Shown here in pieces: positions 10,594 to 58,917 of a stretch of DNA of 64,000 bases (position 1 is its first letter; each line of letters begins with the position of its first letter). A program made the translations under genes and the position numbers. Below the pieces are notes generated by a model. It had not been told where the DNA came from. It made no database searches and worked only from the letters and a program-made list of their open reading frames with translations. This stretch comes from Candidatus Omnitrophota bacterium (GTDB lineage Bacteria > Ratteibacteria > UBA8468 > B48-G9 > DTJG01): positions 1 to 64,000 of the forward strand of contig JAMWBU010000004.1 in the NCBI GenBank assembly GCA_023819255.1, in the 5' to 3' direction.

Positions 10594-12289
10594 TCTTGTT
10601 TTTTTGTTTCTGGTGTTATTTTTCTGCGTGCCAGGTCGATCGGATGCCACACATGGGGGTTCTGTAGTAATCTCATCGTCTTCAATACCAAAATCATTTA
10701 ATCCTGTCGTTGCGAAGGAAACAAGCACGACTTTCATAACAGGATTCATTTTTGAAGGTTTAACTGCCACAGATGGAATTACGCAGCAGGTCAAACCAAA
10801 CCTTGCGATTTCATGGAATATCGATAGTACAGGAAAAATATGGACTTTTTATTTGCGAAAGGATGTTTACTGGAATGATGGAATTCAGTTCACCGCGCGT
10901 GACGTAAAGTTCACTTTTGACCGGTTGATTTTCAATCCTGATATACCCACCAGCAGCAGAGATGTGCTTTCAATCGATGGCAAACCTATAAAGGTTGAGG
11001 TTGTTGAAAAATTTGCGGTAAGGTTTTACTTGCCAGAAAGATTTGCACCATTTTTGAGATTGATGGGACAGGAGATTCTTCCGGAACATAAATATAAACA
11101 GATTGTTGATAGAAAAGCGTTTTCTTTTTCTATGGGATTGGATTCGAAACCAGAAGACATAGTCGGCACAGGTCCTTTCATGCTTGAGGATTTCAGACCA
11201 GGGGAATGGGTTATTTTGAAAAAAAACAAAAGATACTGGAAGAAAGATTCTCAGGGCAATTCACTTCCGTATATTGATAGAATTATTATCCTTACGATCC
11301 CTGATCAGAATCTCGCGCTTTTGAAATTCAAAAAAGGCGAGCTTGATATGATTTCCTTGCGGCCGCAGGATTATCTATTGTTGATGAAAGATAAACCTGC
11401 GGATGTGAAGATTTTCAATGTTGGGCCTTCTCTTGGTTCTGAATTTCTTGTATTCAATCAAAATCTTGACAGCAGTATTGCTGAATATAAGAAACAATGG
11501 TTCAGGAATGTTAAGTTTAGATGGGCGGTTTCCTGCGCCATTGACAGACAGACAATCATTGATAATATTTTTGCCGGGCTCGGTCATCCTTTATATGGTC
11601 CTGTGAACGAATCAGTGCCTGAATTTTATAATAACCGCATTAGAAAATTTCATTACGACCTGAGAAAAGCGGAAATGTATCTGGCTGAAGCAGGTTTCAA
11701 AAAAGGTAGTGATGGATTGCTTTATGATAGAGATGGAAATCAGGTTTCCTTTTCTCTAATTACAAATAGCAACAACAGTCAGAGAATAGAACAGGCAAAC
11801 CTTATAAGGACTGATCTTGAAAAACTTGGCATGAAAGTGAATTTCCTTCCTGTTGATTTCAATTCCCTTGTAACAAGGATTAACAGTACAAGAGATTGGG
11901 AGGCGGTATTACTTGGACTCACAGGAAGCGTAGACCCGCATTTTGGGAAAAATGTCTGGGTTACAAGTGGGCATCTTCATCTGTGGAATCCTGGCTCGCC
12001 TTCGTCAGTTTATTCGTGGGAAAAAGAAATTGACAGTATTTTTCAACAGGCAGCAATGATCTTTGAGCCAGAAAAGAGGAAACAGCTTTACGACAGGTGG
12101 CAGGAAGTTTTTTGCGAAAACCAGCCCATGATTTTTACTGCTACATCTGATGTTATTTACGCGGTAAAGGATAAGTTCGGAAATCTTAAACCCACAGTTT
12201 ATGGTGGACTTTTTCATAACATAGAGGAAATTTATATTTTACCCATTGAATCGGGTTCCTCAAAAGCGAGGAAAAAGATCGGGAAATAA
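10568..12289 (+). CDS. Peptide/oligosaccharide ABC transporter substrate-binding protein (SBP family 5)
   Basis: About 573 residues from the ATG at 10568, which gives a short basic N-terminus (MCRRHRKIN) and hydrophobic signal segment (LVFLFLVLFFCVPG). The mature protein matches SBP_bac_5: an early NPVVAKETST region, WTFYLRKDVYWNDGIQF, TARDVKFTFDRL, GTGPFMLEDFRPGEWVILKK and FRWAVSCAIDRQTI. Such proteins bind peptides, nickel or oligosaccharides outside the membrane and deliver them to Dpp/Opp-type permeases. The only matching permease in the window is dppBCDF-like at 33960-37830, which lacks its own binding protein. The start lies inside secG, so translational coupling is likely. Confidence 0.9.
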   Translation: MCRRHRKINLVFLFLVLFFCVPGRSDATHGGSVVISSSSIPKSFNPVVAKETSTTFITGFIFEGLTATDGITQQVKPNLAISWNIDSTGKIWTFYLRKDVYWNDGIQFTARDVKFTFDRLIFNPDIPTSSRDVLSIDGKPIKVEVVEKFAVRFYLPERFAPFLRLMGQEILPEHKYKQIVDRKAFSFSMGLDSKPEDIVGTGPFMLEDFRPGEWVILKKNKRYWKKDSQGNSLPYIDRIIILTIPDQNLALLKFKKGELDMISLRPQDYLLLMKDKPADVKIFNVGPSLGSEFLVFNQNLDSSIAEYKKQWFRNVKFRWAVSCAIDRQTIIDNIFAGLGHPLYGPVNESVPEFYNNRIRKFHYDLRKAEMYLAEAGFKKGSDGLLYDRDGNQVSFSLITNSNNSQRIEQANLIRTDLEKLGMKVNFLPVDFNSLVTRINSTRDWEAVLLGLTGSVDPHFGKNVWVTSGHLHLWNPGSPSSVYSWEKEIDSIFQQAAMIFEPEKRKQLYDRWQEVFCENQPMIFTATSDVIYAVKDKFGNLKPTVYGGLFHNIEEIYILPIESGSSKARKKIGK

Positions 12290-12293
12290 TCCT

Positions 12294-12806
12294 GTGCCGG
12301 TGCTGAGAATTGTGTATCAGAAGAAACTTGTCGGACGATTTATTTCGGCAAATTACATTGGAAATATCTTTGAAAGATCTATGAGAAGATTGCAGGTTGA
12401 TTTAGTTTTTTCTCAGGGCTTCAATCGGAGGGTCAGGATGAGTTTTGGCCCGCCACTTGCTGTTGGAATAGCAGGTAGAAACGAGATAGTCTACATTTAT
12501 GTAAAAAACACAAATATGTCCTGTCAGTTAATAAAGGAAAAACTGAATGAAATCCTTCCAGAAGGTTTAAAAGTTGTTGACTGTGAGTATTTTCAAGATA
12601 ATAAGAAACCGCCTCTGATCAAAAAGGCTATCTATCTTATAAAAATTTCAGAAGATAAGAAGTTTTTTCTTCCACAATCATGGAAGATTGTTTCGCTAAA
12701 AGACAATATTATGGAGATAGAGATTTCGCTTGAAAAATTCAAACACAAAGAATTGTTTGATATATTCGGTCCTTCTGGTGTTATCGAGCGGTTTTTGATT
12801 TTTTGA
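12294..12806 (+). CDS. DUF2344 / radical-SAM-linked protein (TIGR03936-type), stand-alone
   Basis: About 170 residues. The N-terminal half, RIVYQKKLVGRFISANYIGN, then RSMRRLQVDLVFSQGFNRRV and MSFGPPLAVGIAGRNEIV, is the characteristic pattern of the family usually fused to or next to a B12-binding radical-SAM protein; its biochemical role is not settled. No radical-SAM gene is present in the window. The start is uncertain: GTG 12294 lies just after the upstream stop, while an ATG at 12246 would overlap the preceding gene by 44 bases and add an unconserved basic stretch. Confidence 0.8.
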   Translation: MPVLRIVYQKKLVGRFISANYIGNIFERSMRRLQVDLVFSQGFNRRVRMSFGPPLAVGIAGRNEIVYIYVKNTNMSCQLIKEKLNEILPEGLKVVDCEYFQDNKKPPLIKKAIYLIKISEDKKFFLPQSWKIVSLKDNIMEIEISLEKFKHKELFDIFGPSGVIERFLIF

Positions 12807-12875: not shown

Positions 12876-13658
12876 TTGGCATTGAGATTTAGCATACCAA
12901 AAAGGGAAGGTTTTTATAAGAAATTTGTTTCTTCGGACAATTCTGACATAAAGTTTATTTCATTCAGTTTTTTTCGCGGTAACTCAGGTCAGTCCATTGT
13001 GGAAAACACTGCTCGAGAAGAATGGTTATGGGTTATTCTTTCAGGAAAGATCAGCATTCAAATAAAAGGTGGCGAGAGTTTTATACTCGAGAGGAAAAGT
13101 GTTTTTGTTGATAGACCTGTTTCGCTATACCTTCCACCAGAGACAGAATATTCCATAAAAATTGAGGTTCTGTCAGAGGTACTGGCTGTTTCAGCTGTTG
13201 CAGACAGAAAGTTTTCACCGGTTTTGATTTCTGGCAGGGATGTTAAGGTTCAAAGGGCAGGAAAACTTAATTACCAGCGAACAATATTTAATATAGTGCC
13301 TCAGGATTTCCCTGCATCAAAGATTATCGCTGGAGAGACGATTCATGATAAAGGGCACTGGTCCTGTTTTCCACCGCATAAACATGATGTTGACATGATG
13401 CCTTATGAAAGTGAGCACGAAGAGATATACTTTTTCAAATGCGAGCCAGAAAGCACGGGGTTTGGAATGATGCGCGTTTATGATGAAAAAAATGATGTTG
13501 CTTTTCCAATACTGACGAATGATGTCATAACGATTCCTGGTGGATATCACCCTGTGGCAGTTATTCCAGAACATACTCTTTATTATTTCTGGGTGCTTGC
13601 CGGCAGAAAAAGGCCTTTTCAACGCCATACGCATCCTGACTATTTACAATACGAATGA
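12876..13658 (+). CDS. IolB-family isomerase (5-deoxy-glucuronate isomerase-like)
   Basis: A 260-residue two-cupin protein of the KduI/IolB family. The second cupin carries the metal-site pattern HWSCFPPHKHD, then EHEEIYFFK and IPGGYHPVAVIPE, as in IolB, which isomerises 5-deoxy-glucuronate during inositol degradation. No other iol gene is in the window; instead it heads an operon with hexuronate enzymes (mannonate oxidoreductase-like SDR, UxaE). It may therefore act on another uronate: a role like KduI on 5-keto-4-deoxyuronate from oligogalacturonate, or replacement of uronate isomerase UxaC, is inferred only. It starts at TTG after CAGGAGA. Family is confident, substrate is not. Confidence 0.82.
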   Translation: MALRFSIPKREGFYKKFVSSDNSDIKFISFSFFRGNSGQSIVENTAREEWLWVILSGKISIQIKGGESFILERKSVFVDRPVSLYLPPETEYSIKIEVLSEVLAVSAVADRKFSPVLISGRDVKVQRAGKLNYQRTIFNIVPQDFPASKIIAGETIHDKGHWSCFPPHKHDVDMMPYESEHEEIYFFKCEPESTGFGMMRVYDEKNDVAFPILTNDVITIPGGYHPVAVIPEHTLYYFWVLAGRKRPFQRHTHPDYLQYE

Positions 13659-13669
13659 AGGAGGAGAAA

Positions 13670-14497
13670 ATGGACAGAAAGATGATGGAACTTTTTTCTC
13701 TTGATGGAATGAATGCAGTCGTTACAGGCGGAGCCGGGGTGCTTGGATTAGGTATATGTCGAGGTCTTGCTCTGGCAGGCGCAAAGGTTGGTATTCTTGA
13801 TATGAAAAATTTCGACCAGGCTGCGGAGCAACTTGTTTCAGAAGGGCTAAAAGCGGATGGTTTCTATATTGATGTGTTGAAAAAGGATGAGATTGTCTCC
13901 TGCGCTGAAAAGGTTATTAAAAAATATGGAAGAATAGACATACTTGTCAATTGTGCTGGTGGAAATCTTAAAGAGGCAACAACATCCTCTGAATTGACTT
14001 TTTTTGATCTGCCACTTGCAGGACTTGAAAAGGTTATTGCACTTAATCTTTTTGGCGGTGCAATATTGCCATCGCAGGTTTTCGGAAAAGAGATGGTAAG
14101 AAATAAAGAAGGCGGCTCTATTATAAACATATCCTCAATGAATGCCTTCAGGCCTTTAACAAAGATTCCAGGTTATTCAGCCGCCAAAGCAGCTGTGAGC
14201 AATTTTACTCAATGGCTCGCTGTTCATTTTGCGATGGAATACAACAAACTGTTAAGGGTTAATGCAATCGCTCCGGGATTCTTTTTGACCCAGCAGAACC
14301 GTTATCTTCTTGTGGATGAAAACAATAATTTGACCTCAAGGGGGCAGACAATTATCCAGCATACACCAGCGGGTAGATTTGGCGAACCAGAAGATTTGAT
14401 AGGCGCCTGCATCTGGCTTGCTTCAAAGGCATCAAAATTTGTCACAGGGGTTGTTGTTCCTGTTGATGGGGGATTTAACGCTTATTCAGGGGTTTAA
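13670..14497 (+). CDS. SDR oxidoreductase, D-mannonate oxidoreductase (fructuronate reductase) type
   Basis: A 275-residue short-chain dehydrogenase. Seen: nucleotide-binding VTGGAGVLGLGICRGLA, the NCAGGN motif, catalytic Ser in NISSMNAF and Tyr-x3-Lys in GYSAAKAAV. The C-terminus VNAIAPGFFLTQQNR, then GQTIIQHTPAGRFGEPEDLI and VVPVDGGFNAYSGV closely recalls SDR-type mannonate oxidoreductases (B. subtilis YjmF type), which interconvert D-fructuronate and D-mannonate. ATG 13670 is chosen because AAGGAGGAG precedes it; an ATG 15 bases earlier overlaps the iolB stop. It follows the IolB-like gene and precedes gnd, with UxaE further down, which supports a hexuronate role. Confidence 0.83.
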   Translation: MDRKMMELFSLDGMNAVVTGGAGVLGLGICRGLALAGAKVGILDMKNFDQAAEQLVSEGLKADGFYIDVLKKDEIVSCAEKVIKKYGRIDILVNCAGGNLKEATTSSELTFFDLPLAGLEKVIALNLFGGAILPSQVFGKEMVRNKEGGSIINISSMNAFRPLTKIPGYSAAKAAVSNFTQWLAVHFAMEYNKLLRVNAIAPGFFLTQQNRYLLVDENNNLTSRGQTIIQHTPAGRFGEPEDLIGACIWLASKASKFVTGVVVPVDGGFNAYSGV

Positions 14498-14516: not shown

Positions 14517-16004
14517 ATGGGAAAAGCGGATATTGCAGTAATCGGGATGGATGTTATGGGAAGGAGTCTTGCTCTCAATATGGAGAGCCGCGGTTACACT
14601 GTTGCTGTTTATAACAGGACAGCCGAGAAGACAAAAATATTCGCAGAGACAATGGCGAAAGGGAAAAACATCATTCCAACTTATGATCTCAAAGAACTTG
14701 TTGATGCGCTCAAAAGTCCAAAAAAAATTATGCTGATGGTCAAGGAGGGCCAGCCTGTTGACAGTTTTATTGAATCTCTTCTGGAATATTTGAAAACAGG
14801 CGACCTGATTATAGACGGTGGAAACTCTTTCTTTAAGGACACAATTCGCAGGAACAAAACACTTGCTGAGAAAGGTATTTTGTTCATTGGAACAGGTGTT
14901 TCCGGCGGTGAAGAGGGTGCGTTAAAGGGGCCAGCAATAATGCCTGGCGGACAGAAACAGGCCTATGACCTCATTGAGAAGATATTTAAGGACATTTCCG
15001 CAAAGGCATATGACGGAGAACCATGTGTTGATTATATGGGACCAGATGGAGCAGGCCATTTTGTCAAGACAATTCATAATGGAATTGAATATGGAGATAT
15101 GCAACTTATCGGAGAGGTTGTGTGGTTTTTTACAAATGTCGGAATGAAAGCCGATGAAATCGCAGATATAATGGCAAAATGGAACGAAAAAGACGATATT
15201 TTACGCTCCTATCTAATTGAAATAACAGCTGATAGCATGAAACAGAAACACCAGGATTCAGACGAATTTCTTGTTGACAGGGTCGCTGATATAACAAGGA
15301 TGAAAGGAACAGGCACCTGGACAGTTCAGAGCGCCCTTGAATTGCTTGTGCCGATTCCAACCATTGCGGCTGCTGTTTTTTCCAGAGAAATGTCTCAGGA
15401 CAAAGATCTACGGCTTTCTATGGCAAAGAAACTTAAAATTAGTTCGTCCAGATTCAATGGTGATAAAAAAGATATGGTGCAGATTGCGCATGACGCGCTT
15501 TACATTGCGAAAATTTCTTCATATGCGCAAGGTATTGCTCTTTTGCAGGCGGCTTCAAAGACATACAATTTTAATTTGAATATTGGAAGAATTGCGAAAG
15601 TGTGGAGAGCAGGATGCATCATTCGAGCCCAATTCCTTGATGAAATCACAAAGGCATATGAATCTAATCCGGATCTGCCAAACTTGCTTGCGGCTCCAAA
15701 ATTTGCAGATTTTGTTGAGAAAAACACAGGAAAGCTGGTGAGGTTTGTAGAGGTTGCTCATCAGTGTGGAGTGCCGGCTCTTGCAATGTCGGGTTCACTC
15801 GACTATATTTTGCAGATAACATCGCCTGTTATGCCTTCTGCCCAGGTTTCTGCGCTTCAGCGAGATTATTTTGGCGCTCACGGATATTTTAAAATAGGCG
15901 GGACGAGCAAACCTGAATTGATGTTGAATAAGGAAGGCAAAGTGAGGGAGTTTCACACCGAGTGGTTGCTTCCTGGAAGACCGGAAAAAGAAATAACAAA
16001 ATAA
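14517..16004 (+). CDS. gnd: 6-phosphogluconate dehydrogenase, decarboxylating
   Basis: A 495-residue long-form 6PGDH, oxidatively decarboxylating 6-phosphogluconate to ribulose 5-phosphate. Seen: the nucleotide-binding start AVIGMDVMGRSLALNMESRG with YNRT typical of NADP enzymes, the catalytic Lys region GAGHFVKTIHNGIEYGDMQL, and the signature MKGTGTWTVQSAL. Met-Asp in VIGMDVMG replaces the more usual Leu-Ala, a minor difference. The start at 14517 follows AGGAGAGAGG; in-frame codons upstream lie inside the SDR. Its place between a mannonate oxidoreductase-like gene and a LarA-like epimerase is unusual and suggests sugar-acid catabolism rather than only the oxidative pentose phosphate pathway. 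No zwf is in the window. Confidence 0.95.
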   Translation: MGKADIAVIGMDVMGRSLALNMESRGYTVAVYNRTAEKTKIFAETMAKGKNIIPTYDLKELVDALKSPKKIMLMVKEGQPVDSFIESLLEYLKTGDLIIDGGNSFFKDTIRRNKTLAEKGILFIGTGVSGGEEGALKGPAIMPGGQKQAYDLIEKIFKDISAKAYDGEPCVDYMGPDGAGHFVKTIHNGIEYGDMQLIGEVVWFFTNVGMKADEIADIMAKWNEKDDILRSYLIEITADSMKQKHQDSDEFLVDRVADITRMKGTGTWTVQSALELLVPIPTIAAAVFSREMSQDKDLRLSMAKKLKISSSRFNGDKKDMVQIAHDALYIAKISSYAQGIALLQAASKTYNFNLNIGRIAKVWRAGCIIRAQFLDEITKAYESNPDLPNLLAAPKFADFVEKNTGKLVRFVEVAHQCGVPALAMSGSLDYILQITSPVMPSAQVSALQRDYFGAHGYFKIGGTSKPELMLNKEGKVREFHTEWLLPGRPEKEITK

Positions 16005-16087: not shown

Positions 16088-17098
16088 ATGGAAGACTTTT
16101 TTTTACGGATAAAAGAATTCAAAAAGACAAAAGATTATCTTGTCGCAATTGATACAGATGGTTGCGTCGTTGATAATATGAGTGGGAAACAGATTCTTGT
16201 TTTTCATCCTCTTTATATGGAATTTTATGGATTATGGGATATTGAGTCGTATTTCAGAGAGGTTGCCGAATACTACAATCTTTTCTCAGTTCACAGGGGT
16301 TCCAATAGATTTATCGCTTTAAGGTTAATCCTGAATGTTCTCAAAAACCGAATGGATGCAGGCAGGGTTGTGAAAGAAAACAATTTGAAAATACCTGACT
16401 CTGGAATACTTGACGATTTCATTGATTTTTGTGAGAAAAATAGTTATGGACTCAGTAATTCTTCTCTCAAGATGTTTGTTGATACAAGGTGTCTGGATTT
16501 AGCCGCTCAAAAGACTCTCGCCTGGAGCAGAGCGGTTAACGAAGTATTGCTGATTATAAACAAGAATTTTATGCCATTTGCGAATGTCAGAGAATCTCTT
16601 GAGATTATTAGCAGGGAAGCTGACATTGTTGTTGTTTCTCAGACGCCATACGATGATTTATTTGAATACTGGCGTTCATATGACATGATAAAATATTTGA
16701 AGATTATATGCGGGCAGGAAACCGGAAGCAAGGTTTTTCAGATTGAAATGCTGAAGAAAATCGGTGGCTATCCTGATGAAAATGTGCTGGTTATAGGAGA
16801 CAGCTACGGCGATTTTGAAGCGGCAACAAAAAACAATGTGAAATTTTATCCGGTGGTTCCCGGAAAAGAAGAAAATGCGTGGAAAAAGATGCCTGATGCT
16901 TTTGAACTTTTTCTGGGCGGCAAATACACGGCTGAAAAGCAGAAATTTTTTCTTGAAGAATTTTTAAAAATTTTAAATTCTTCTCCGGCGTGGGAAAATC
17001 CAGAATATGACCACTCAGTTTCATACCGGGAAAAACAGGAACTTAGAAAATCTTTATATAAGAGATTTAACCCTTCAGGGAGATTATTGCTGCTATGA
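16088..17098 (+). CDS. HAD-superfamily hydrolase, substrate unknown
   Basis: A 336-residue HAD protein. Seen: motif I as AIDTDGCVVDNM (DxDxx(V/T)), a large alpha-helical cap, motif II Ser/Thr in VVVSQTPYDD, and motif IV VLVIGDSYGDFEAA. Phosphatase or phosphonatase-type chemistry is expected, probably on a sugar or sugar-acid phosphate given the neighbours. It overlaps the LarA-like gene by the four-base ATGA, so they are translationally coupled. No Shine-Dalgarno-like sequence is visible ahead of the ATG, which is unusual in this window. Specificity cannot be read from the sequence. Confidence 0.8.
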   Translation: MEDFFLRIKEFKKTKDYLVAIDTDGCVVDNMSGKQILVFHPLYMEFYGLWDIESYFREVAEYYNLFSVHRGSNRFIALRLILNVLKNRMDAGRVVKENNLKIPDSGILDDFIDFCEKNSYGLSNSSLKMFVDTRCLDLAAQKTLAWSRAVNEVLLIINKNFMPFANVRESLEIISREADIVVVSQTPYDDLFEYWRSYDMIKYLKIICGQETGSKVFQIEMLKKIGGYPDENVLVIGDSYGDFEAATKNNVKFYPVVPGKEENAWKKMPDAFELFLGGKYTAEKQKFFLEEFLKILNSSPAWENPEYDHSVSYREKQELRKSLYKRFNPSGRLLLL

Positions 17099-18381
17099 TT
17101 ATAAAAGAAAAATGGCGCGTGGATAGTTCCCTGTCGAATACAGAATTTTCATCATTGTTGAATGAAGCGCTTGCCTTGAAATTTTTCGAAAAGCAAAAAA
17201 TTTTGACGATTATTCCTGATGGAACGCGCTCGGGTCCCACAGGACTTCTTTTCAGAACAATACTCGATTCACTTTATGGCAGGGCAAGCAAGATTGATTT
17301 TATGATAGCGCTTGGCACGCACCCAGCCATAGGTGAAAATCAACTTGAAAAACTTCTTGGAATAAGTTGTGCTGACTTGCAGAGCAAGTATCCGGAAACC
17401 GCTGTCTATCAACACTGCTGGGACGATTCTTATATCATCACAGAAATTGGCACGATAACCTCAAAAGAAATTTATGAAATTACAAAGGGATTGCTTGACG
17501 AAGATATTCCTGTAACGGTTAATCGAAACATACTTGATTATGATCAGATAATACTTGCAGGTCCTGTTTTTCCGCACGAAGTTGTTGGTTTTTCTGGCGG
17601 CTATAAGTATATTTTTCCAGGGGTTTCCGGCCCGCATTTTCTTCACAAGTTTCACTGGCTCGGTGCTTTGATTACCAATCCAAAAATAAATGGCACAAAG
17701 GATACACCTGTCAGAGACGCGATAAATAAAGCGGTTTCCTTTATTAAGACGCCAATAACGCAAATATGCTATGTTGTGAAGGACAAGAATGTTTATGGGT
17801 TATATGTGGGTGATAATCAGGCGTGGTCTCAGGCTGCGGATCTGTCGGCTCAACTTAATATCAAATATGTTAAAAATAGTTATAAAACTGTTTTATCCAT
17901 GGCTCCTTTAATGTACGATGACATCTGGACAGCCGGGAAGTGCATGTATAAATTAGAGCCTGTTGTTGCTGATGGTGGAACCTTGATCATTTATGCACCC
18001 CATATAACCGAGGTTTCATACACTCATGGGAAATATATTGAACAGGTGGGATATCATACGCGCGACTATTTTGTGAAACAATGGGAAAAATTCAAGGATT
18101 TTCCCGGCGGGATTCTTGCTCATTCAACCCATGTTAAAGGAATAGGAACTTTCATAAATGGTAAAGAGAATCCAAGAATAAGTGTCTGCCTTGCCACAGG
18201 CATAACAAAACAAATGTGCGAAAAAATTAATCTTGGATATATCAATCCTGGCGCGATTGATATCAATGAGTTTATCAGAAAACCAGACACTCTTGTTGTG
18301 AGAGATGCAGGAGAAGTTCTTTTTAGATTGGAAAATGGAGATGTTCCGGATATTGATGAACTTTACAGGATACACAAATGA
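17095..18381 (+). CDS. LarA-family nickel-pincer racemase/epimerase
   Basis: A 428-residue member of the lactate racemase family, whose enzymes use a covalently bound nickel-pincer nucleotide to racemise or epimerise 2-hydroxy acids. The N-terminal domain has IIPDGTRSG and IALGTHPAIG, as in LarA. The key residues are at the right spacing: a His in YQHCWDD, then PHEVVGFSGGYK (His and the cofactor-attached Lys ten residues apart), then a His 16 residues after that Lys (HKFH). The wider family includes D-gluconate 2-epimerase as well as lactate, malate and phenyllactate racemases. Between gnd, the HAD gene and uxaE, a sugar-acid epimerase is likelier than a lactate racemase. The cofactor genes larB, larC and larE are not in the window. 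Confidence 0.87.
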   Translation: MIIKEKWRVDSSLSNTEFSSLLNEALALKFFEKQKILTIIPDGTRSGPTGLLFRTILDSLYGRASKIDFMIALGTHPAIGENQLEKLLGISCADLQSKYPETAVYQHCWDDSYIITEIGTITSKEIYEITKGLLDEDIPVTVNRNILDYDQIILAGPVFPHEVVGFSGGYKYIFPGVSGPHFLHKFHWLGALITNPKINGTKDTPVRDAINKAVSFIKTPITQICYVVKDKNVYGLYVGDNQAWSQAADLSAQLNIKYVKNSYKTVLSMAPLMYDDIWTAGKCMYKLEPVVADGGTLIIYAPHITEVSYTHGKYIEQVGYHTRDYFVKQWEKFKDFPGGILAHSTHVKGIGTFINGKENPRISVCLATGITKQMCEKINLGYINPGAIDINEFIRKPDTLVVRDAGEVLFRLENGDVPDIDELYRIHK

Positions 18382-19742
18382 ACGAGTCATTCAGAAAGCG
18401 ATATCCTGAATTCAAAGTTTTTAATAGTTCTATTAGAAGACATGGCGATAAGTATTACTTTGTAGCCGAAAGAGAAAGCAGGTTCTATCTTGTTACTGGC
18501 AAAGATTCTTTCAGTTTTTTTGAAAGAGAAAAAGCCCCTGAGATACTGAAGAAAAGTTTTCCTTTTCTTAAGCCCGCGTGCTCGGGTTGCAAGAATTCTT
18601 TTGGTTTTGGAGATAGAACAGGATACGCTACAGCAGGTCATATTCGTGCTGCCAGAAAAAGCAATTTTTTCCCGATTTTTGCGCAACAATCGGCAAGAGA
18701 ACTTGAAAGGACAGGCAGAAGTTTTCAGCAGGTTCTTGATGATGTGGTATTCTGGTGTTTTGCTGAAGGATGGTCGGATCCTTTCGGCGCAGACGCTGAC
18801 CACGCAAAGAGTTTTGAAACCCTGCAGGAGGCAATTTCCGCAGGATATACCTTCTTCACCATTGACCCGTCGGATAAGATTAAGATTTTAGAAAAACAAT
18901 TTGCCGGAGAAAGCCATAAATATGGATTTTATCTCAAACAATATTCTGGAAAGAAAATTTCGATCAAGGGATTTTCTTTTGTTTTTACAGATGATATTAT
19001 TATTGACCTTGTTTCCACATATGGAGACGCTCTTGATTTTGTTCAGCAGTGTTATTTATTTATTTCAGATAAAAGAAAAGATTTTGATTTTGAGGTCTCT
19101 GTCGATGAAACAAAAATTCCAACAAGCCCTTTTGCTCATGTGTTTGTTGCGATGGAACTTATAAGGAGAAAAATCAGTTTTCAGAGTCTGGCATTGCGTT
19201 TTCCGGGAAAATTTGAAAAGGGAATTGACTACAGGGGAGATATTAAAAATTTTACAGGGGATCTGATAGTTCATAACAACATAAGAAATTATTTTGGACC
19301 GTATAAAATTTCCCTGCATTCTGGAAGCGATAAGTTCGCAGTATACAGAGAATTCAGGAATATTGTCGCAGATATGTTTCATGTGAAAACATCAGGAACA
19401 TCATGGATTCAGGCGATGAAGACAATTGCCGCGGTTGACAGGAACCTGTTTATTGAATGTATGGCTGTAGCGCTCAAAAATTTTGAAAAAAATTCTGCTT
19501 CCTATGAAATTTCTGCTGATATTTCAAGGATAAACATTGAAAAAATGCAAAGAGAAGATATTGAAAGCATGTTTTCTGACAGCAATATAAGGCAGCTGAT
19601 TCATATCAGTTATGGAAGCATTACAGGAGTCGAGAGTCCGCAATTGAAGAACAGTTTTTTCTCTGTAATTGAAAAAAACCTTGAACTTTACACTCAATTT
19701 GTTGAAGAACATTTAAACAGGCACATTACACTTTTATCATAA
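18378..19742 (+). CDS. uxaE: Tagaturonate/fructuronate epimerase UxaE
   Basis: A 454-residue protein of the UxaE family, known from Thermotoga as the enzyme interconverting D-tagaturonate and D-fructuronate, which lets galacturonate enter the glucuronate branch. Recognised from GFGDRTGYATAGHIRAAR, IFAQQSARELERTGRSFQQV and FGADADHAKSFETLQEA, a set highly characteristic of the family, and the later SVDETKIPTSPFAHVF and SLHSGSDKFAVY, which look like barrel strands with acidic and His residues. Length is normal. It overlaps the LarA-like gene by ATGA, and transketolase follows 14 bases later. This is the strongest single pointer that the block handles hexuronates. Confidence 0.9.
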   Translation: MNESFRKRYPEFKVFNSSIRRHGDKYYFVAERESRFYLVTGKDSFSFFEREKAPEILKKSFPFLKPACSGCKNSFGFGDRTGYATAGHIRAARKSNFFPIFAQQSARELERTGRSFQQVLDDVVFWCFAEGWSDPFGADADHAKSFETLQEAISAGYTFFTIDPSDKIKILEKQFAGESHKYGFYLKQYSGKKISIKGFSFVFTDDIIIDLVSTYGDALDFVQQCYLFISDKRKDFDFEVSVDETKIPTSPFAHVFVAMELIRRKISFQSLALRFPGKFEKGIDYRGDIKNFTGDLIVHNNIRNYFGPYKISLHSGSDKFAVYREFRNIVADMFHVKTSGTSWIQAMKTIAAVDRNLFIECMAVALKNFEKNSASYEISADISRINIEKMQREDIESMFSDSNIRQLIHISYGSITGVESPQLKNSFFSVIEKNLELYTQFVEEHLNRHITLLS

Positions 19743-19756
19743 AAAAAGGAGCCAGG

Positions 19757-21676
19757 ATGAAGAAAAGATTTCCTTATGATACTTTGCCCGTTGATGAAAT
19801 TAAAACATTGAAGGAATTCAGCAATCTTTGTAGAAGAGATGTTCTTACGATGACAACACTTTCAAAATCCGGTCATCCGGGCGGTTCAATGTCCGCCATG
19901 GAGATATATAATGTTATCTTTCATTTTGCCGCAATAAGTCCTGAAAAAGTGGATGATCCTGAAAGAGATAAGATTGTTATAAGTTTTGGTCATACTTCTC
20001 CAGGAGTATACGCTGTTTTGGGAAGATTGGGGTTTTTTGATCCTGACACAGCGATTGCTTCATTCAGACAGGCTGGAAGCATTTTTGAAGGGCATATCGT
20101 GAGAAAAGTCCCTGGAATTGACTGGGGCACCGGTAATCTGGGCCAGGGACTTTCCGCAGGTTGCGGATACGCGCTTTTTGACAGAATAAAAAATCGTGAA
20201 AGCTACACTTTTGTTTTGATGAGCGATGGTGAGCAAACTAAGGGACAGGTTGGTGAAGCGCGGCGTTTTGCAATGAAATATAATCTGAATAATCTCAGGG
20301 TAATCATTGATTATAACAGGATACAGATAAGCGGATGCATTTTTGATATCATGCCGTCAAACATCAAGGAGAATTATCTTGCCGATGGATGGGAAGTAAT
20401 GGAAACAGATGGACATGATATAGCCCGGCTTTATTCAACTATAAAGAAAAGCCTTGAAATTGATAAACCAGTTTGTATAATCGCAAACACGGTTATTGGC
20501 AAAGGCGTTTCTTTTATGGAAGGGAAATGCGCATATCATGGAAAGACGCTCGGTGAAGAGGACTACATTAAAGCGATCAAGGAACTTGGTTTTGAAAGTG
20601 ATCTTGAAAAATACAAAGAGTTGAGAAAGAAAAAGAATTACACATTTCCCGGAAGGAGTTTTGAAATAAAAGTTTCAATAAACAAAGGGAAAAGCCGCAC
20701 CTATGAACCAGGAACGAAAATTGATAATCGTACCGCATTTGGAAACGCGCTTCTGGATCTTGGAATAGCCAATAAAGATAACAAAGAAAATCCAATCCTT
20801 GTTTTTGATTGTGATCTTGCAAGCTCAGTAAAGACCGATATATTTGCCAGGGAATTTCCGGATAGATTTTTTCAGTGCGGTGTCCAGGAACACCATGCCG
20901 CAACAGTGTCAGGCGCTTCTTCGTCTGGCGGCGCTGTGAGTTTTTTTGCTGATTTTGGAGTATTCGGGGTTGACGAGACATACAATCAACATCGCTTGAA
21001 TGACCAGAACTACACAAACCTGAAGGTTATATGCACACATCTCGGTCTTGATGTGGGAGAGGATGGGAAAACGCATCAATGTATAGATTACATTGGGCTG
21101 TTCAGAAATATTTTTGGTATGCGCCTTATTATACCCGCCGATCCAAACCAGACAGACAGAGTGATAAGATATGTTGCGTCGCAACCAGGAAATTATTTTG
21201 TTGGCATGGGTAGATCGAACGCACCTATTATTACCACTATTGATGGAAGGCCATTTTTCGCGTCTGATTACGAGTTTGAATACGGACGGGCTGACATTTT
21301 AAGAGACGGCAAAAATGGTTTTATTTACACTATGGGAGCACTTGTGCCAAGGGCAATCGCAATTTCTGACCAGTTGAAGCAGCAGGGTATAGAAATTGGT
21401 GTTGTCAATTACAGCTGCCCTGTGGCGATAGATGAAAATGCGTTGAATATGGGAATTAAAACAGGGCTTGTGATTTCCTATGAAGACCATATTGCTGATT
21501 CAGGACTTGGGATGACCATTGCTTCTTATATTGCCGAAAAGCAAAAGATTGTTAAGTTTTACAGGCTCGGCATAAGAAAATATGGAAGCTCTGGCACACC
21601 CGACGAACTCTATGCAGAGCACGGTCTGGATGTTGAGACAGTGAAGGATTTAATTAGAAAATTGTTGAAAGTTTGA
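19757..21676 (+). CDS. tkt: Transketolase
   Basis: A 639-residue single-chain transketolase, transferring two-carbon units between pentose phosphate pathway sugars with thiamine diphosphate. Seen: SKSGHPGGSMSAMEIYN, the GTGNLGQGLSAGCGYA stretch, the ThDP/Mg2+ motif LMSDGEQTKGQVGEARRFA followed by an N-R-I-Q segment, the central QCGVQEHHAATVSGA with its Glu, and a transketolase C-terminal domain (VNYSCPVAIDENAL). It has the full three-domain length, not the split form of archaea and some anaerobes. A strong AAAAGGAG precedes the ATG. Downstream of gnd and uxaE, it would process the ribulose 5-phosphate made by Gnd. Confidence 0.95.
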   Translation: MKKRFPYDTLPVDEIKTLKEFSNLCRRDVLTMTTLSKSGHPGGSMSAMEIYNVIFHFAAISPEKVDDPERDKIVISFGHTSPGVYAVLGRLGFFDPDTAIASFRQAGSIFEGHIVRKVPGIDWGTGNLGQGLSAGCGYALFDRIKNRESYTFVLMSDGEQTKGQVGEARRFAMKYNLNNLRVIIDYNRIQISGCIFDIMPSNIKENYLADGWEVMETDGHDIARLYSTIKKSLEIDKPVCIIANTVIGKGVSFMEGKCAYHGKTLGEEDYIKAIKELGFESDLEKYKELRKKKNYTFPGRSFEIKVSINKGKSRTYEPGTKIDNRTAFGNALLDLGIANKDNKENPILVFDCDLASSVKTDIFAREFPDRFFQCGVQEHHAATVSGASSSGGAVSFFADFGVFGVDETYNQHRLNDQNYTNLKVICTHLGLDVGEDGKTHQCIDYIGLFRNIFGMRLIIPADPNQTDRVIRYVASQPGNYFVGMGRSNAPIITTIDGRPFFASDYEFEYGRADILRDGKNGFIYTMGALVPRAIAISDQLKQQGIEIGVVNYSCPVAIDENALNMGIKTGLVISYEDHIADSGLGMTIASYIAEKQKIVKFYRLGIRKYGSSGTPDELYAEHGLDVETVKDLIRKLLKV

Positions 21677-53783: not shown

Positions 53784-56132
53784 GTGAGAAGATACGATTA
53801 CAGTTCTTCAGTTGAAAAAATTGCGATAAAACAATCTGGTTTTGAACCGCGTTACCAACCGGAAGAAAAAATAAGAATTCTTGAGGTGGCTGATTTTCCC
53901 AGTCTTGGAAAAATTACAGCACTGAGGTTTTTAGAATGGTGTAAGAAGAATCCCGCAGGCGTAGTTTCTTTGCCTACCGGCAAGACGCCAGAACATTTTA
54001 TATACTGGACATCTTTTATTCTTAAAAACTGGTTCGGAAAAGATGTTCAACGACTTCTTGATTCTTACGAAATTGATTCTAAGATCAGGCCAGTTATGTC
54101 TGATTTTATTTTTGTTCAGATAGATGAGTTTTTTCCAATGAATCCACGGCATGAAAATAGTTTTCTATGGTATATCAATAAATTTTATATTAAGGAATTT
54201 GGATTTGATGACAAAAAGGCACTTTTGATTGATGCGTGGACAACAGGATGCAAGCGCGGAAAAAATCTTGGGGAATTTTTTCCCGATGGCAGGATAGATC
54301 TATCATTAAGATACAGGCAACCCAGAAATAAACTCGAAGAGCTTCAACAAAAGGCAATTCAGCATATTGATGATTATGCGATGGAATATGAGCAAAAAAT
54401 CAGAGAATATGGAGGCATTGGATTTTTTCTCGGCGGCATCGGCCCGGATGGCCATATCGGTTTTAACATAAGGGGTTCAGACCATTTCAGCACAACTCGA
54501 CTTGCACCTATCAATTATGAAACAGCGGCAGCCGCAGCGACAGACCTTGGAGGAATAGAAGTTTCAAGGGAAAAAGTTGTTATGACAATCGGCATTGAAA
54601 CAATTACATTTAACAAAACGGCAACTGCGATTATTATTGCCGCCGGGGAAAGCAAAGCGCAGGTTGTCAGGGATGCAGTGACAAATGAGCCTTCAATTCT
54701 TTATCCAGCAAGCGCTCTTGGCATACTTGAAGGCGCGTGTTTTTACCTCACAACCGGAGCGACAAAACGTCTCACGCAAAGGACAATAAAAAAACTTGAG
54801 AAAGAGCCTGCTTTTTCTGAGATTGATTTGAAAAAAATTATTGTTGATGTTGCGCTTAAAAGCAACAAATCGCTTGAATCACTGGCTATTGCTGATTTTA
54901 GAAAAATCACGGAAGGAAATTTCCTTATAAAAAATGGAATTGATGTTGCCGTTGCTTCGAAGTCTGTTTCTCGTTCCTTTAAAGAAAAAATAAAGCGCGG
55001 CACAGAGACGATTGAAAACACCACGTTTTTGCACACAGGCCCACATCATGATGATATAATGCTGGGTTATATGCCATACATAATTCATCTTGTAAGAACA
55101 CCTTTGAACAATCATTATTTTGCGACTCTCACCAGTGGTTTTAGTTCTGTGACAAACTCTTATGTTGTTGAGCAAATGAAAAATCTCGAATCTTTTATTT
55201 CAACTGATGAGTGCAGACAATTACTTCAGCAAAAGTACTTCAAACCAGATGATAATAAAGCAAGGATCAGAGATGTGTATCTCTATCTTGATGGGGTTGC
55301 TGCAAATAGTGCGGATATTCAGAACCAGGCTTCTGCGAGAAGGATGATGAGAAACATTGTTTCGATAGTCAATTCGTATAAGATATCAACGATAGAAAAC
55401 AAAATTTCATGGTTTTTCAAATATTTTGCGAGCTCTTATCCTGGGAAAAAAGATATCCCGGATGTTCAACTTCTAAAAGGGATGATAAGAGAATGGGAAG
55501 AGGAACTTTTATGGGCGCATCTTGGATTTGACTGTCAGCATGTTTTTCATATGAGATTGCCTTTTTACACAGGCGACATCTTTACAAAAAAACCGCAGTT
55601 GAATCAGGACATAATGCCGATGCTGGATTTAATCGAAAAAATCAACCCTGACGTCATTACTGTAGCGATGGATCCTGAAGCAAGCGGTCCCGACACGCAT
55701 TATAAGGTTTTGCAGGCAATTGCAGAAGCCATTGGACTGTATCTGAAAAAAAATCCAGGGAAAAAGATACGGGTGTGGGGCTATAGAAATGTGTGGTACA
55801 GGTTTCATCCAGCAGAGGCAGATATTATTGTGCCTGTTTCCATGAACTCATTTGCGATTATGAGAAGCGCTTTCAATATCTGTTTTGGTTCACAGAAAAG
55901 CGCATCTTTTCCAAGTTATGAGTATGACGGACCTTTTTGCGACCTTGCTCAGAAAATTATGGCAGAACAATACGCTATGATGAAGACATGTCTGGGAAGG
56001 GAATTTTTTTATTCAAGTGAAATTCCCAGACTCAGAGCAACAAGGGGACTGGTATTTTTGAGAGAAATGGAGCCAGAAGAGTTTTTCGCTGAAGCAAGAT
56101 ATCTTAAACAATTGACTGAAAGCATAAAATGA
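53784..56132 (+). CDS. Glucosamine-6-phosphate deaminase fused to a PIG-L/LmbE deacetylase domain
   Basis: A 782-residue two-domain protein. Residues about 40-340 are NagB-type: GVVSLPTGKTPEHFIY, FVQIDEFFPM, GGIGPDGHIGFNIRGS, TTRLAP. Residues about 410-770 are PIG-L-like: LHTGPHHDDIMLGYMPYI (the metal-binding HxDD-type motif) and a terminal region containing DPEASGPDTHYKVL, with a further His/Asp set. NagB converts glucosamine 6-phosphate to fructose 6-phosphate; a PIG-L domain removes N-acetyl groups. Similar fusions exist in Bacteroidetes. The start is GTG 53784 with GAGGGG 11 bases upstream, so it is somewhat uncertain. Confidence 0.9.
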   Translation: MRRYDYSSSVEKIAIKQSGFEPRYQPEEKIRILEVADFPSLGKITALRFLEWCKKNPAGVVSLPTGKTPEHFIYWTSFILKNWFGKDVQRLLDSYEIDSKIRPVMSDFIFVQIDEFFPMNPRHENSFLWYINKFYIKEFGFDDKKALLIDAWTTGCKRGKNLGEFFPDGRIDLSLRYRQPRNKLEELQQKAIQHIDDYAMEYEQKIREYGGIGFFLGGIGPDGHIGFNIRGSDHFSTTRLAPINYETAAAAATDLGGIEVSREKVVMTIGIETITFNKTATAIIIAAGESKAQVVRDAVTNEPSILYPASALGILEGACFYLTTGATKRLTQRTIKKLEKEPAFSEIDLKKIIVDVALKSNKSLESLAIADFRKITEGNFLIKNGIDVAVASKSVSRSFKEKIKRGTETIENTTFLHTGPHHDDIMLGYMPYIIHLVRTPLNNHYFATLTSGFSSVTNSYVVEQMKNLESFISTDECRQLLQQKYFKPDDNKARIRDVYLYLDGVAANSADIQNQASARRMMRNIVSIVNSYKISTIENKISWFFKYFASSYPGKKDIPDVQLLKGMIREWEEELLWAHLGFDCQHVFHMRLPFYTGDIFTKKPQLNQDIMPMLDLIEKINPDVITVAMDPEASGPDTHYKVLQAIAEAIGLYLKKNPGKKIRVWGYRNVWYRFHPAEADIIVPVSMNSFAIMRSAFNICFGSQKSASFPSYEYDGPFCDLAQKIMAEQYAMMKTCLGREFFYSSEIPRLRATRGLVFLREMEPEEFFAEARYLKQLTESIK

Positions 56133-56142
56133 GAGGTGCGAA

Positions 56143-57537
56143 ATGTCAATACAGAGACCAGTCATTGGAATGCTTGGCGTCACCGCGAGTCTTTATAAAA
56201 AAAAGCTTCCACAATTTGTTGAGGAACTTGAAAAACAGTACAAGAATTTTGTTCAGAAATGTTTTTCGTTTGCTGACATTGTTAGTTTTCCTGTTGCTTA
56301 CGAAAGGCATATGATAGAAGAATCATATTCAAAAATGCTTCAGGCGGGCGTGGATGGCATTATTATTGTGTTTCTTTCTTACAGTCCCAGCATGATTATC
56401 GCGCCTGTTATTGAAAAAAGCCGTGTTCCGGTTCTCATATGGAACACGCAGCATCTTTTTGAGATAACTAAAAGTTTCTCAGTCAGGGATATGATAAATA
56501 ATCATGGCATGCATGGGGTTCAGGATCTCGCCTGTGTTCTTTTGAGACAGAAGTCACCATTTATAATTGTCACAGGTCATTGGACCCAGAATGACACAAT
56601 GTTATCTCTGGCGAACTGGTGCAGATGCGCTGCGGTTTATGGGGCTTTAAAGAGATTAAAGGTAGGCAGAATCGGAGGAAGATTTAAAGACATGGGCGAT
56701 TTTTCTGTGTCGGATGAAGCCATTGGAAAAAATTTCGGCGTGGATATTGTAGACATTGAAATAGCCGAGCTGGAAAATGAAGCAAAGCAAATTTCCCGGA
56801 ATGACATAGAGCAAGTACTTAAAAACGAAAAGAAGAAGTTTATTGTTGAGATTGACAGCAGCCTTCATGAAAATTTGATCTGTACGGAGATGGCGTTAAG
56901 AAACATAATTAATAGGTACGGACCGGGTGCACTGGCAATAAATTTTATGGCATTTAAAGGGGACTCTGCCTATAATTTAATGCCATTTTACGCTATTTCA
57001 AAACTTATTTCAGAGGGCATGGGATACGGAGGCGAAGGAGACGCCCTTTGCGCCATAAGCGTATGGATTCTCCATAAACTTGCTGGTCAGGCCGCATTTA
57101 CAGAGATGTTTACCACTGATTATAAAAATAATAGAATTTTTATGTCTCACATGGGCGAAAGCAACCTTTCTATGGCAAAGAACGATGCAGAAATAAAGCT
57201 TGTTAAGAAGGATATGAGCATTGTCAACCCGGGATCCTTTACAGGAATGTTTTTATTTCAACAAAAGCCGGGAACTGTTACACTCTTTAATCTTGCTCCA
57301 TGTGAAAAAGAAAAGTTTCGTTTTATTGCTGCAACAGGCCGTGTGGAAAGCAGAAAGATTTTTCCAGATATCAAAGCACCACACTTTCTGTTGAAGGTAA
57401 AAGATGATGTGAGGGATTTTTTAACATCGTACAGCCTGTATGGAGGGACACATCATCTTGCTATGGCATACGGGGATTATAATGAGCGGCTCAGGACCCT
57501 TGCCAGTATAATCGGTCTGGAATTTTTACAAATTTAA
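56143..57537 (+). CDS. L-arabinose/L-fucose isomerase-like protein
   Basis: A 464-residue protein of the arabinose/fucose isomerase superfamily. Seen: RPVIGMLGVTASLYKKKLPQ, GVDGIIIVFLSYSPSM, VPVLIWNTQHLFEI, NNHGMHGVQDLACVLLRQ, IGGRFKDMGDFSVSDE, and a C-terminal YSLYGGTHHLAMAYGDY with the terminal His of the metal site. It may isomerise an aldose to a ketose whose phosphorylation is done by the FGGY kinase three bases downstream. The exact sugar is unknown; identification is by overall pattern. Confidence 0.82.
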   Translation: MSIQRPVIGMLGVTASLYKKKLPQFVEELEKQYKNFVQKCFSFADIVSFPVAYERHMIEESYSKMLQAGVDGIIIVFLSYSPSMIIAPVIEKSRVPVLIWNTQHLFEITKSFSVRDMINNHGMHGVQDLACVLLRQKSPFIIVTGHWTQNDTMLSLANWCRCAAVYGALKRLKVGRIGGRFKDMGDFSVSDEAIGKNFGVDIVDIEIAELENEAKQISRNDIEQVLKNEKKKFIVEIDSSLHENLICTEMALRNIINRYGPGALAINFMAFKGDSAYNLMPFYAISKLISEGMGYGGEGDALCAISVWILHKLAGQAAFTEMFTTDYKNNRIFMSHMGESNLSMAKNDAEIKLVKKDMSIVNPGSFTGMFLFQQKPGTVTLFNLAPCEKEKFRFIAATGRVESRKIFPDIKAPHFLLKVKDDVRDFLTSYSLYGGTHHLAMAYGDYNERLRTLASIIGLEFLQI

Positions 57538-57540
57538 TCT

Positions 57541-58917
57541 ATGGGAAACTTTTTATCTTTTGATAGCGGTACAACCAACACCAAGGTTTTTTTGTATTCA
57601 GCAGATGGGCAGCTTTTACAGAATACTTCGATAAAAACAGGCATTTGTTTCCCCGGGCCTCTTATGGCTGAACAGGATAGTGATGACTGGATTTCTGCCA
57701 TAAGGAAAGGAATAAAGAGAATAAAACAAAAATCTGCAATAGACGGCATTTCCGGGAGTTTTCAGGGTGGAACATTTGTTTTGCTCGATAGAAATCTTGG
57801 TCCGCTCAGACCAGCGATAACCTGGCTTGATAACAGGGCAAAATATGTTGCTCAAGAGCTCATTCAAGAATTTGGGGAAGAATTTTTCTATAAGAAAACC
57901 GGATACGTACCGGGCGGGTGGTCGTGCGTTACCATTTTAAGGTGGTTGAAGAAAAACGAACCAGAGGTATTCGGAAAAGTTGCGCGAATTTCGTTTGTTG
58001 CGGATTATGTAAATCATTTTTTGACAGGCAATTTTGTTATTGATAAAACCAGCGCTGCAATTACCACGCTTTATAATCTGAAGGAAGAGAAGTGGGATTA
58101 TGAACTTCTGGAAATAGCCGGGATAAGCAAAAACATGCTTCCTGAGATAGTTGAAGCAGATACCTCAATAGGTGGAATTAATGCATTTGCTGCAAAATCA
58201 TTGGGTTTGAAATCTGGAATTCCTGTGCTTGCAGGAGGACATGACCAGTACTGTGCAAGTTTGGGCGCACGTGCTGCGGAAAAAGGCAAAATTCTTGTTT
58301 CCTGCGGAACTGCATGGGTTTTGCTTGCATCCACCACAAAACTTGTTTTTGATAGCAGAATGCGTCTTGCACCCGGTCCTCATGTCAAACAAGGTATTTA
58401 CGGACTTATGGCTGCTATGAGCAATGGCGGAGTTATATATGAATGGGGACAGAAAAATATTACGCGAAAATTCAATCTTCTTTCACATCCTTCAGGTGTT
58501 GTTGTAATACCGGATTTTAACACAGGAAACGGTGCCATTTGCGGGTTGGGTCTTTCAACAAAATCTTCAGATATAATGCGGGCAATTGTTGAAGCGCTCT
58601 GTTTTCAGGTTCGTGAGCGACTTGAAAGAATCGAAGAAATACTGCCTGAAGGAGAAAAGATAAACTGTATTGTTATGATAGGCGGAGCCGCAAAGGATAC
58701 ATCTCTTGCGCAATTGCTTTCAACCATTTCAGGGAAAACGGTTGTTGTCCCTGAAATAAGCGAAGCTGCCGGGTCAGGCGCGATGAGACTTTTCGGATCA
58801 TTATGTGAAATTGATGAAGACAGGCGCGATAGAGTTTTCTATCCTGAAGAAAAACTTTTTGATTCTTACAGTAATATGTATGCAAGTTATCTTAATTTGA
58901 AGAAAATTTTTAATTGA
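57541..58917 (+). CDS. FGGY-family carbohydrate kinase
   Basis: A 458-residue FGGY kinase. Seen: phosphate-1 motif FLSFDSGTTNTKVFLYSADG, the catalytic-domain ITWLDNRAKYVAQE, VLAGGHDQYCASLGARA, CGTAWVLLA and VMIGGAAKDTSLAQLLS. FGGY kinases include xylulo-, rhamnulo-, fuculo- and glucono-kinases. Next to an arabinose/fucose-isomerase-like gene, phosphorylation of its ketose product is most likely; gluconate is an alternative that would fill the gap in the sugar-acid block. No signal peptide. Confidence 0.88.
   Translation: MGNFLSFDSGTTNTKVFLYSADGQLLQNTSIKTGICFPGPLMAEQDSDDWISAIRKGIKRIKQKSAIDGISGSFQGGTFVLLDRNLGPLRPAITWLDNRAKYVAQELIQEFGEEFFYKKTGYVPGGWSCVTILRWLKKNEPEVFGKVARISFVADYVNHFLTGNFVIDKTSAAITTLYNLKEEKWDYELLEIAGISKNMLPEIVEADTSIGGINAFAAKSLGLKSGIPVLAGGHDQYCASLGARAAEKGKILVSCGTAWVLLASTTKLVFDSRMRLAPGPHVKQGIYGLMAAMSNGGVIYEWGQKNITRKFNLLSHPSGVVVIPDFNTGNGAICGLGLSTKSSDIMRAIVEALCFQVRERLERIEEILPEGEKINCIVMIGGAAKDTSLAQLLSTISGKTVVVPEISEAAGSGAMRLFGSLCEIDEDRRDRVFYPEEKLFDSYSNMYASYLNLKKIFN

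Follow-up and report, generated by a model that had tools for sequence, protein, structure and literature searches.

The window (the whole stretch of 64,000 nucleotides analyzed here) encodes a LarA-family protein amid genes for sugar-acid breakdown, which raises the question of what a nickel-pincer enzyme converts in such an operon. A sequence-only reading of the locus had proposed a new or rare substrate. This proposal could not be upheld, because the closest characterized relative is GntE2 of Thermotoga maritima, the gene of which has the same operon partners, and because the pocket residues match the GntE signature. The gene product most likely represents an already known enzyme type, which interconverts D-mannonate and D-gluconate. 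The features of the locus are compiled in Table 1.

Table 1. Genes of the operon and functional residues of the gntE product
Feature	Position	Strand	Evidence or remark
KduI/IolB-family isomerase, likely uronate isomerase in place of UxaC	12876..13658	+	Pfam KduI 1.3e-62
UxaD-like SDR, fructuronate reductase/D-mannonate oxidoreductase	13655..14497	+	PRK08277 351 bits, cut-off 281
gnd, NADP-dependent 6-phosphogluconate dehydrogenase (decarboxylating)	14517..16004	+	592 and 566 bits, above both cut-offs
HAD-superfamily hydrolase, unnamed subfamily (DTDG motif, large helical cap)	16088..17098	+	HAD_2 3.6e-6
gntE, predicted GntE-type nickel-pincer D-mannonate/D-gluconate 2-epimerase	17095..18381	+	ATG at 17095, stop codon ends at 18381, 428 aa; 4NAR match 4e-60, TM 0.87/0.89, invariant catalytic and signature residues
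H107 (in YQHCWDD)	17413..17415	+	equivalent of LarA H108, catalytic acid/base; role from PMC7583248
H161-E162-V163	17575..17583	+	H161 equivalent of LarA H174; E-V, specificity loop of GntEs
K171	17605..17607	+	equivalent of LarA K184, cofactor-bearing lysine
H187	17653..17655	+	equivalent of LarA H200, nickel ligand
uxaE, tagaturonate-fructuronate epimerase	18378..19742	+	PF16257 8.1e-138; ATGA overlap with gntE
transketolase	19757..21676	+	PRK05899 939 bits, cut-off 575

Active site, cofactor supply, and family placement of the gntE product

The 428-aa protein matches the Pfam model Lar_N (2.6e-21), and the top 19 PDB fold matches of its AlphaFold2 model (pLDDT 89) all belong to the LarA family. 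In LarA, the catalytic residues are D72, H108, H174, and K298, while R75, K184, and H200 serve the cofactor; H108 and H174 act as acid/bases and the nickel is bound by H200 (PMC7583248). All seven positions are occupied accordingly in the window protein (catalytic D42, H107, H161, and K282; cofactor R45, K171, and H187), and they are invariant in 24 of 24 orthologues from related genomes as well as in the 74 aligned family members (74/74). The assignment to the LarA family with intact functional residues was thus borne out, as was the spacing of the histidines, with H161 located 10 residues before K171, H187 16 residues after it, and H107 within YQHCWDD. Their description as pincer ligands holds only in part: the residues are present, but H107 and H161 correspond to the acid/bases and H187 alone to the nickel ligand. 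Comparison with a congeneric orthologue (dN 0.16 vs. a saturated dS of 2.4) shows that gntE is under purifying selection.

The absence of larB, larC, and larE would have counted against the sequence-only reading. All three are encoded in the source genome (2.02 Mb, 78 contigs, 92.8% complete) with scores above the curated cut-offs: larB on contig C50 (278 bits, cut-off 175), larC on C4 (LarC1 110 and LarC2 126 bits, both above cut-off), and larE on C41 (315 bits, cut-off 150). None of them adjoins gntE; they lie elsewhere than in the operon. Since the three genes are present, the NPN cofactor can be made by this organism.

The closest solved relative is the structure 4NAR (Q9WYS3), regardless of the method applied. 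A phmmer search of PDB gave 4e-60 for 4NAR, compared with about 1e-5 for lactate racemases (LarA, 1.6e-5); with a profile of the orthologues, the match improved to 4e-87 (next match 2e-14), and Foldseek returned TM values of 0.87/0.89 for the window model, vs. about 0.7 for LarA. 4NAR is GntE2 (LarAH20) of T. maritima, a 2-epimerase that converts D-mannonate to D-gluconate in the assay (PMC7583248). It shares the D, R, H, H, K, H, K active site with the window protein at an overall identity of only about 32%. The KM of GntE2 for D-mannonate is high (17 mM; PMC7583248), and the natural substrate could therefore be a close relative of mannonate.

The usual pocket residues of GntEs are E, V, A, and H (PMC11770544). 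In the window protein, E162, V163, A342, and H343 were found at the positions of LarA F175/F176/W358/T359, where the A342-H343 column was aligned via 4NAR and to LarAH18 proteins, LarA itself not being superposed. The four residues are invariant in 24 of 24 orthologues, and E162/V163 also in all 74 family members. GntE2 differs in the specificity loop, which reads E-S instead of E-V. The H-E-V loop and the A-H motif are common to the putative hexonate epimerase LarAH18 (NF052594), the model of which gave the best NCBIfam score for the window protein (184 bits vs. a cut-off of 500); none of the NCBIfam models was passed. The strongest of the 24 orthologues reached only an E-value of 4e-56 with NF052594. 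Related genomes encode true LarAH18 proteins (L037, 612 bits; L039, 592 bits), but their identity to the window protein is only 25–30%, which places the latter on a different branch and rules out a LarAH18 identity.

The proposed route from uronates to the pentose phosphate pathway

The ATGA overlaps of gntE with the HAD gene and uxaE, already recognized in the sequence-only reading, were confirmed (HAD stop codon at 17096–17098, uxaE start at 18378). A further ATGA overlap joins the KduI and UxaD genes. Because the neighboring genes would provide mannonate (UxaE and UxaD) and consume 6-phosphogluconate (Gnd), the conversion of mannonate to gluconate is the one missing isomerization. We consider it very probable that the window protein belongs to the NPN enzymes of the GntE type, with LarAH20/GntE2 as its nearest relative, and that it epimerizes D-mannonate at C2 to D-gluconate. 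The degradation of uronates would thereby be connected to the oxidative pentose phosphate pathway. By analogy with LarA, the NPN would be tethered to K171 with H187 on the nickel, H107/H161 would take the hydroxyl proton, and a hydride would move from C2 to the cofactor and then back onto the opposite face of the 2-keto acid. In the proposed route, galacturonate would be converted to tagaturonate by the KduI-like protein, tagaturonate to fructuronate by UxaE, fructuronate to D-mannonate by UxaD, and D-mannonate to D-gluconate by GntE. Phosphorylation to 6-phosphogluconate (by a kinase not recognized in the genome) would be followed by the formation of ribulose-5-phosphate, CO2, and NADPH by Gnd and by the transketolase reaction.

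Rodionova et al. (2012) proposed a mannonate-to-gluconate step for T. maritima (as cited in PMC6978723 and PMC7583248). That route likewise has UxaE, UxaD, GntE, and Gnd within one operon. The T. maritima gene set comprises gnd, uxaE, uxaD, gntE, and gntK, the first three of which are operon partners here, too. However, the T. maritima operon contains gntK and a regulator and lacks the HAD, KduI, and transketolase genes, all three of which are carried by the window operon. UxuA and Zwf were not found here, no gluconokinase was recognized among the small P-loop and FGGY types, and the KduI/IolB protein likely replaces UxaC. A literature search for this route in Omnitrophota yielded nothing relevant. 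Directly 5' of the operon, a DUF2344/TIGR03936 radical-SAM-associated protein is encoded (12246–12806), which also lies on the 5' side in L040, L041, and L044. Elsewhere in the window (53784–58917), three genes in a run, presumably for a sugar pathway, encode a NagB-like domain protein of 782 aa, a protein resembling L-arabinose isomerase (below cut-off), and an unassigned FGGY kinase of 458 aa (57541–58917).

Several textbook genes of uronate and glucose-6-phosphate metabolism were not detected, although these absences are not final because the genome is about 93% complete. UxuA (mannonate dehydratase) was not found in the source genome, and the 19 related genomes gave weak partial matches only, one of them just above cut-off when summed. 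Zwf (glucose-6-phosphate dehydrogenase) was not found in the source genome. Of the 19 related genomes, 18 yielded no Zwf, among them 12 of the 13 with a completeness of at least 90%; the exception is G008. Yet a gnd gene is present in the window operon as well as in named relatives. As UxuA and Zwf were not found, mannonate is left with no standard exit and Gnd with no standard feed except via gluconate. UxaC was not found in the source genome either (it is present in G010, G011, G012, and G015), which would fit a KduI/IolB protein acting as uronate isomerase. The KduI of E. coli converts galacturonate and glucuronate (PMC3578941); the IolB model scored 186 bits for the window gene, under the cut-off of 205. 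A GH28 pectinase was not found in the source genome.

Gnd retains the motifs KGTG, KTIHN, and RDYFGAH of a 6-phosphogluconate dehydrogenase, so a kinase is needed, and this step is the chief gap of the route; on the motifs and the model scores, an activity on unphosphorylated gluconate was rejected. The genome-wide search for a gluconokinase covered the small P-loop and FGGY types. No small P-loop type was recognized in the genome, and none of its five FGGY kinases exceeded the gntK cut-off (three of them are a xylulokinase, a ribulokinase, and one closest to rhamnulokinases; the two unassigned ones are encoded on contig C24 and at 57541–58917 of the window). The weak gluconokinase matches in relatives that were opened (L131, L133) turned out to be shikimate kinases between aroC and aroB.

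Three other substrates were weighed against the mannonate/gluconate pair. That a lactate or malate racemase resides in the sugar-acid operon by chance is highly improbable. Superfamily and catalytic residues are the same, and LarA (Lactobacillus plantarum 5HUQ; Isosphaera pallida 9EIA) resembles the window protein in fold and cofactor, but the substrate-pocket residues and the operon differ, the similarity is weak (27 bits), and the loop is E-V where lactate racemases have F-F. The LarA and malate racemase models gave 64–100 bits vs. cut-offs of 460–500 (lactate racemase model NF033504, 64 bits vs. 460). In addition, a separate lactate-racemase-like paralogue is encoded near larE (L008, 4384–5688), which scored 412 bits with the LarA model and 322 bits with the Isosphaera LarA. 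In line with the earlier reading, the protein did not cluster with lactate racemases by phmmer, orthologue profile, or Foldseek. The residue and model comparisons support an active-looking NPN enzyme in a sugar-acid operon and contradict a lactate racemase identity. The paralogue itself is clustered with genes for NagB-like, amidohydrolase-like, and URO-D-like proteins (L008, 2464–6752) at a distance of approximately 3.4 kb from larE.

Phosphorylation might also precede epimerization, in which case the protein would act on 6-phosphomannonate and release the Gnd substrate directly. This order of steps has been demonstrated with Lactobacillus suebicus extracts, the epimerase gene of that species not being known (PMC6978723), and it would accord with the high KM of GntE2 for free mannonate and with the lack of a recognized gluconokinase in the genome. 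We nevertheless regard it as unlikely: a mannonate kinase was not identified in the genome either, unphosphorylated mannonate is accepted by the closest characterized enzyme and two other enzymes of the GntE group, and the conserved acidic E162 beside the active-site histidine would argue against a phosphate pocket. A different C6 sugar acid from the degradation of uronates, namely altronate, an aldarate such as glucarate, or L-gulonate, is a quite unlikely substrate. The GntE branch has been surveyed only in part for its substrates, and GntE1 (LarAH19) lies in a uronate context, with a KM of 120 mM for mannonate; however, the neighboring genes leave the mannonate-to-gluconate step as the only isomerization missing.

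Distribution of gntE and its HAD partner

In a scan of named genomes, at least 580 stretches encoded a relative. The best 80 of these came mostly from metagenome-assembled genomes labeled as Omnitrophota, Latescibacteria, Atribacteria, Planctomycetota, Chloroflexota, and others. The nearest label among them was Omnitrophota (71% identity). The gene runs around gntE at 74 loci (window included) contained Gnd (26), UxaD (23), UxaC (8), UxaE (7), a PPi-dependent phosphofructokinase (7), a PfkB kinase (6), and a gluconokinase-like FGGY kinase (4). The PFK-like neighbor was set aside as a gluconate kinase, since the model assigns it to the PPi-dependent phosphofructokinases (332 bits, cut-off 273). 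At L072, L081, L083, L084, L096, and L104, a PfkB kinase distantly similar to KDG kinases adjoins gntE/gnd, with no UxuA seen nearby; it is possibly a PfkB-type gluconokinase.

The unnamed HAD subfamily adjoins gntE/gnd in many uncultured phyla (window 16088–17098; L040–L113). It lies beside gntE at about 26 of 74 loci, the gene runs around gntE contain it at 19 of 74 loci (window included), and HAD and Gnd genes share operons (p 7e-4). Across 61 genomes, 19 encode both GntE and the HAD protein, 8 GntE only, 3 the HAD protein only, and 31 neither (Fisher 6e-7, uncorrected for relatedness). The co-occurrence is strong, yet not strict. L100 has two HAD copies that differ in sub-type, one next to Gnd and the other next to GntE. 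The residues D22, D24, S184, K215, and D238 are invariant in the subfamily. The predicted structure (pLDDT 92.9) has a large cap and matches HADs of the phosphoglycolate phosphatase/beta-phosphoglucomutase type at low TM, which points to a phosphatase type in general only. The idea that the HAD protein universally replaces gluconokinase is weakened by G010 and G014 (93–96% complete), which encode GntE but neither the HAD protein nor a recognized gluconokinase.

In L087, L094, and L101, the gene directly 5' of gntE is similar to PdxB (4-phosphoerythronate dehydrogenase; confirmed for L087 with 439 bits), which hints at a 4-phosphoerythronate problem in the pathway. In L087 and L101, this gene is also close to the HAD and Gnd genes. 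4-Phosphoerythronate is a poison for 6-phosphogluconate dehydrogenase, and other organisms have proofreading phosphatases that remove it (PMC6449344, PMC12445079). On this ground, our leading guess is that the HAD protein may serve as a metabolite-proofreading phosphatase. A more far-reaching reading, which we put forward tentatively and with some doubt, is that the oxidative pentose phosphate branch of this lineage has lost its entry from glucose-6-phosphate and is fed by uronates alone via the nickel epimerase. In this reading, the HAD protein would be a new enzyme specific to the pathway; proofreading of 4-phosphoerythronate or 6-phosphomannonate as a phosphatase would be its most likely role, and the missing phosphoryl-transfer step a less likely one.

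Implications for uronate metabolism

The enzyme itself is ordinary; less ordinary are the route without several textbook genes and the conserved HAD partner, an enzyme with a clear pathway context. A nickel-pincer type with one well-studied example in a pectin operon is now extended to many uncultured phyla, which argues for the C2 epimerization of mannonate as a common bypass of mannonate dehydratase. Through GntE, the pentose phosphate pathway of this uncultured bacterium can most likely be fed with sugar acids of the pectin type; its oxidative branch is apparently dependent on uronates. If the absence of glucose-6-phosphate dehydrogenase holds, the supply of NADPH and pentoses from Gnd would depend on nickel and uronates.
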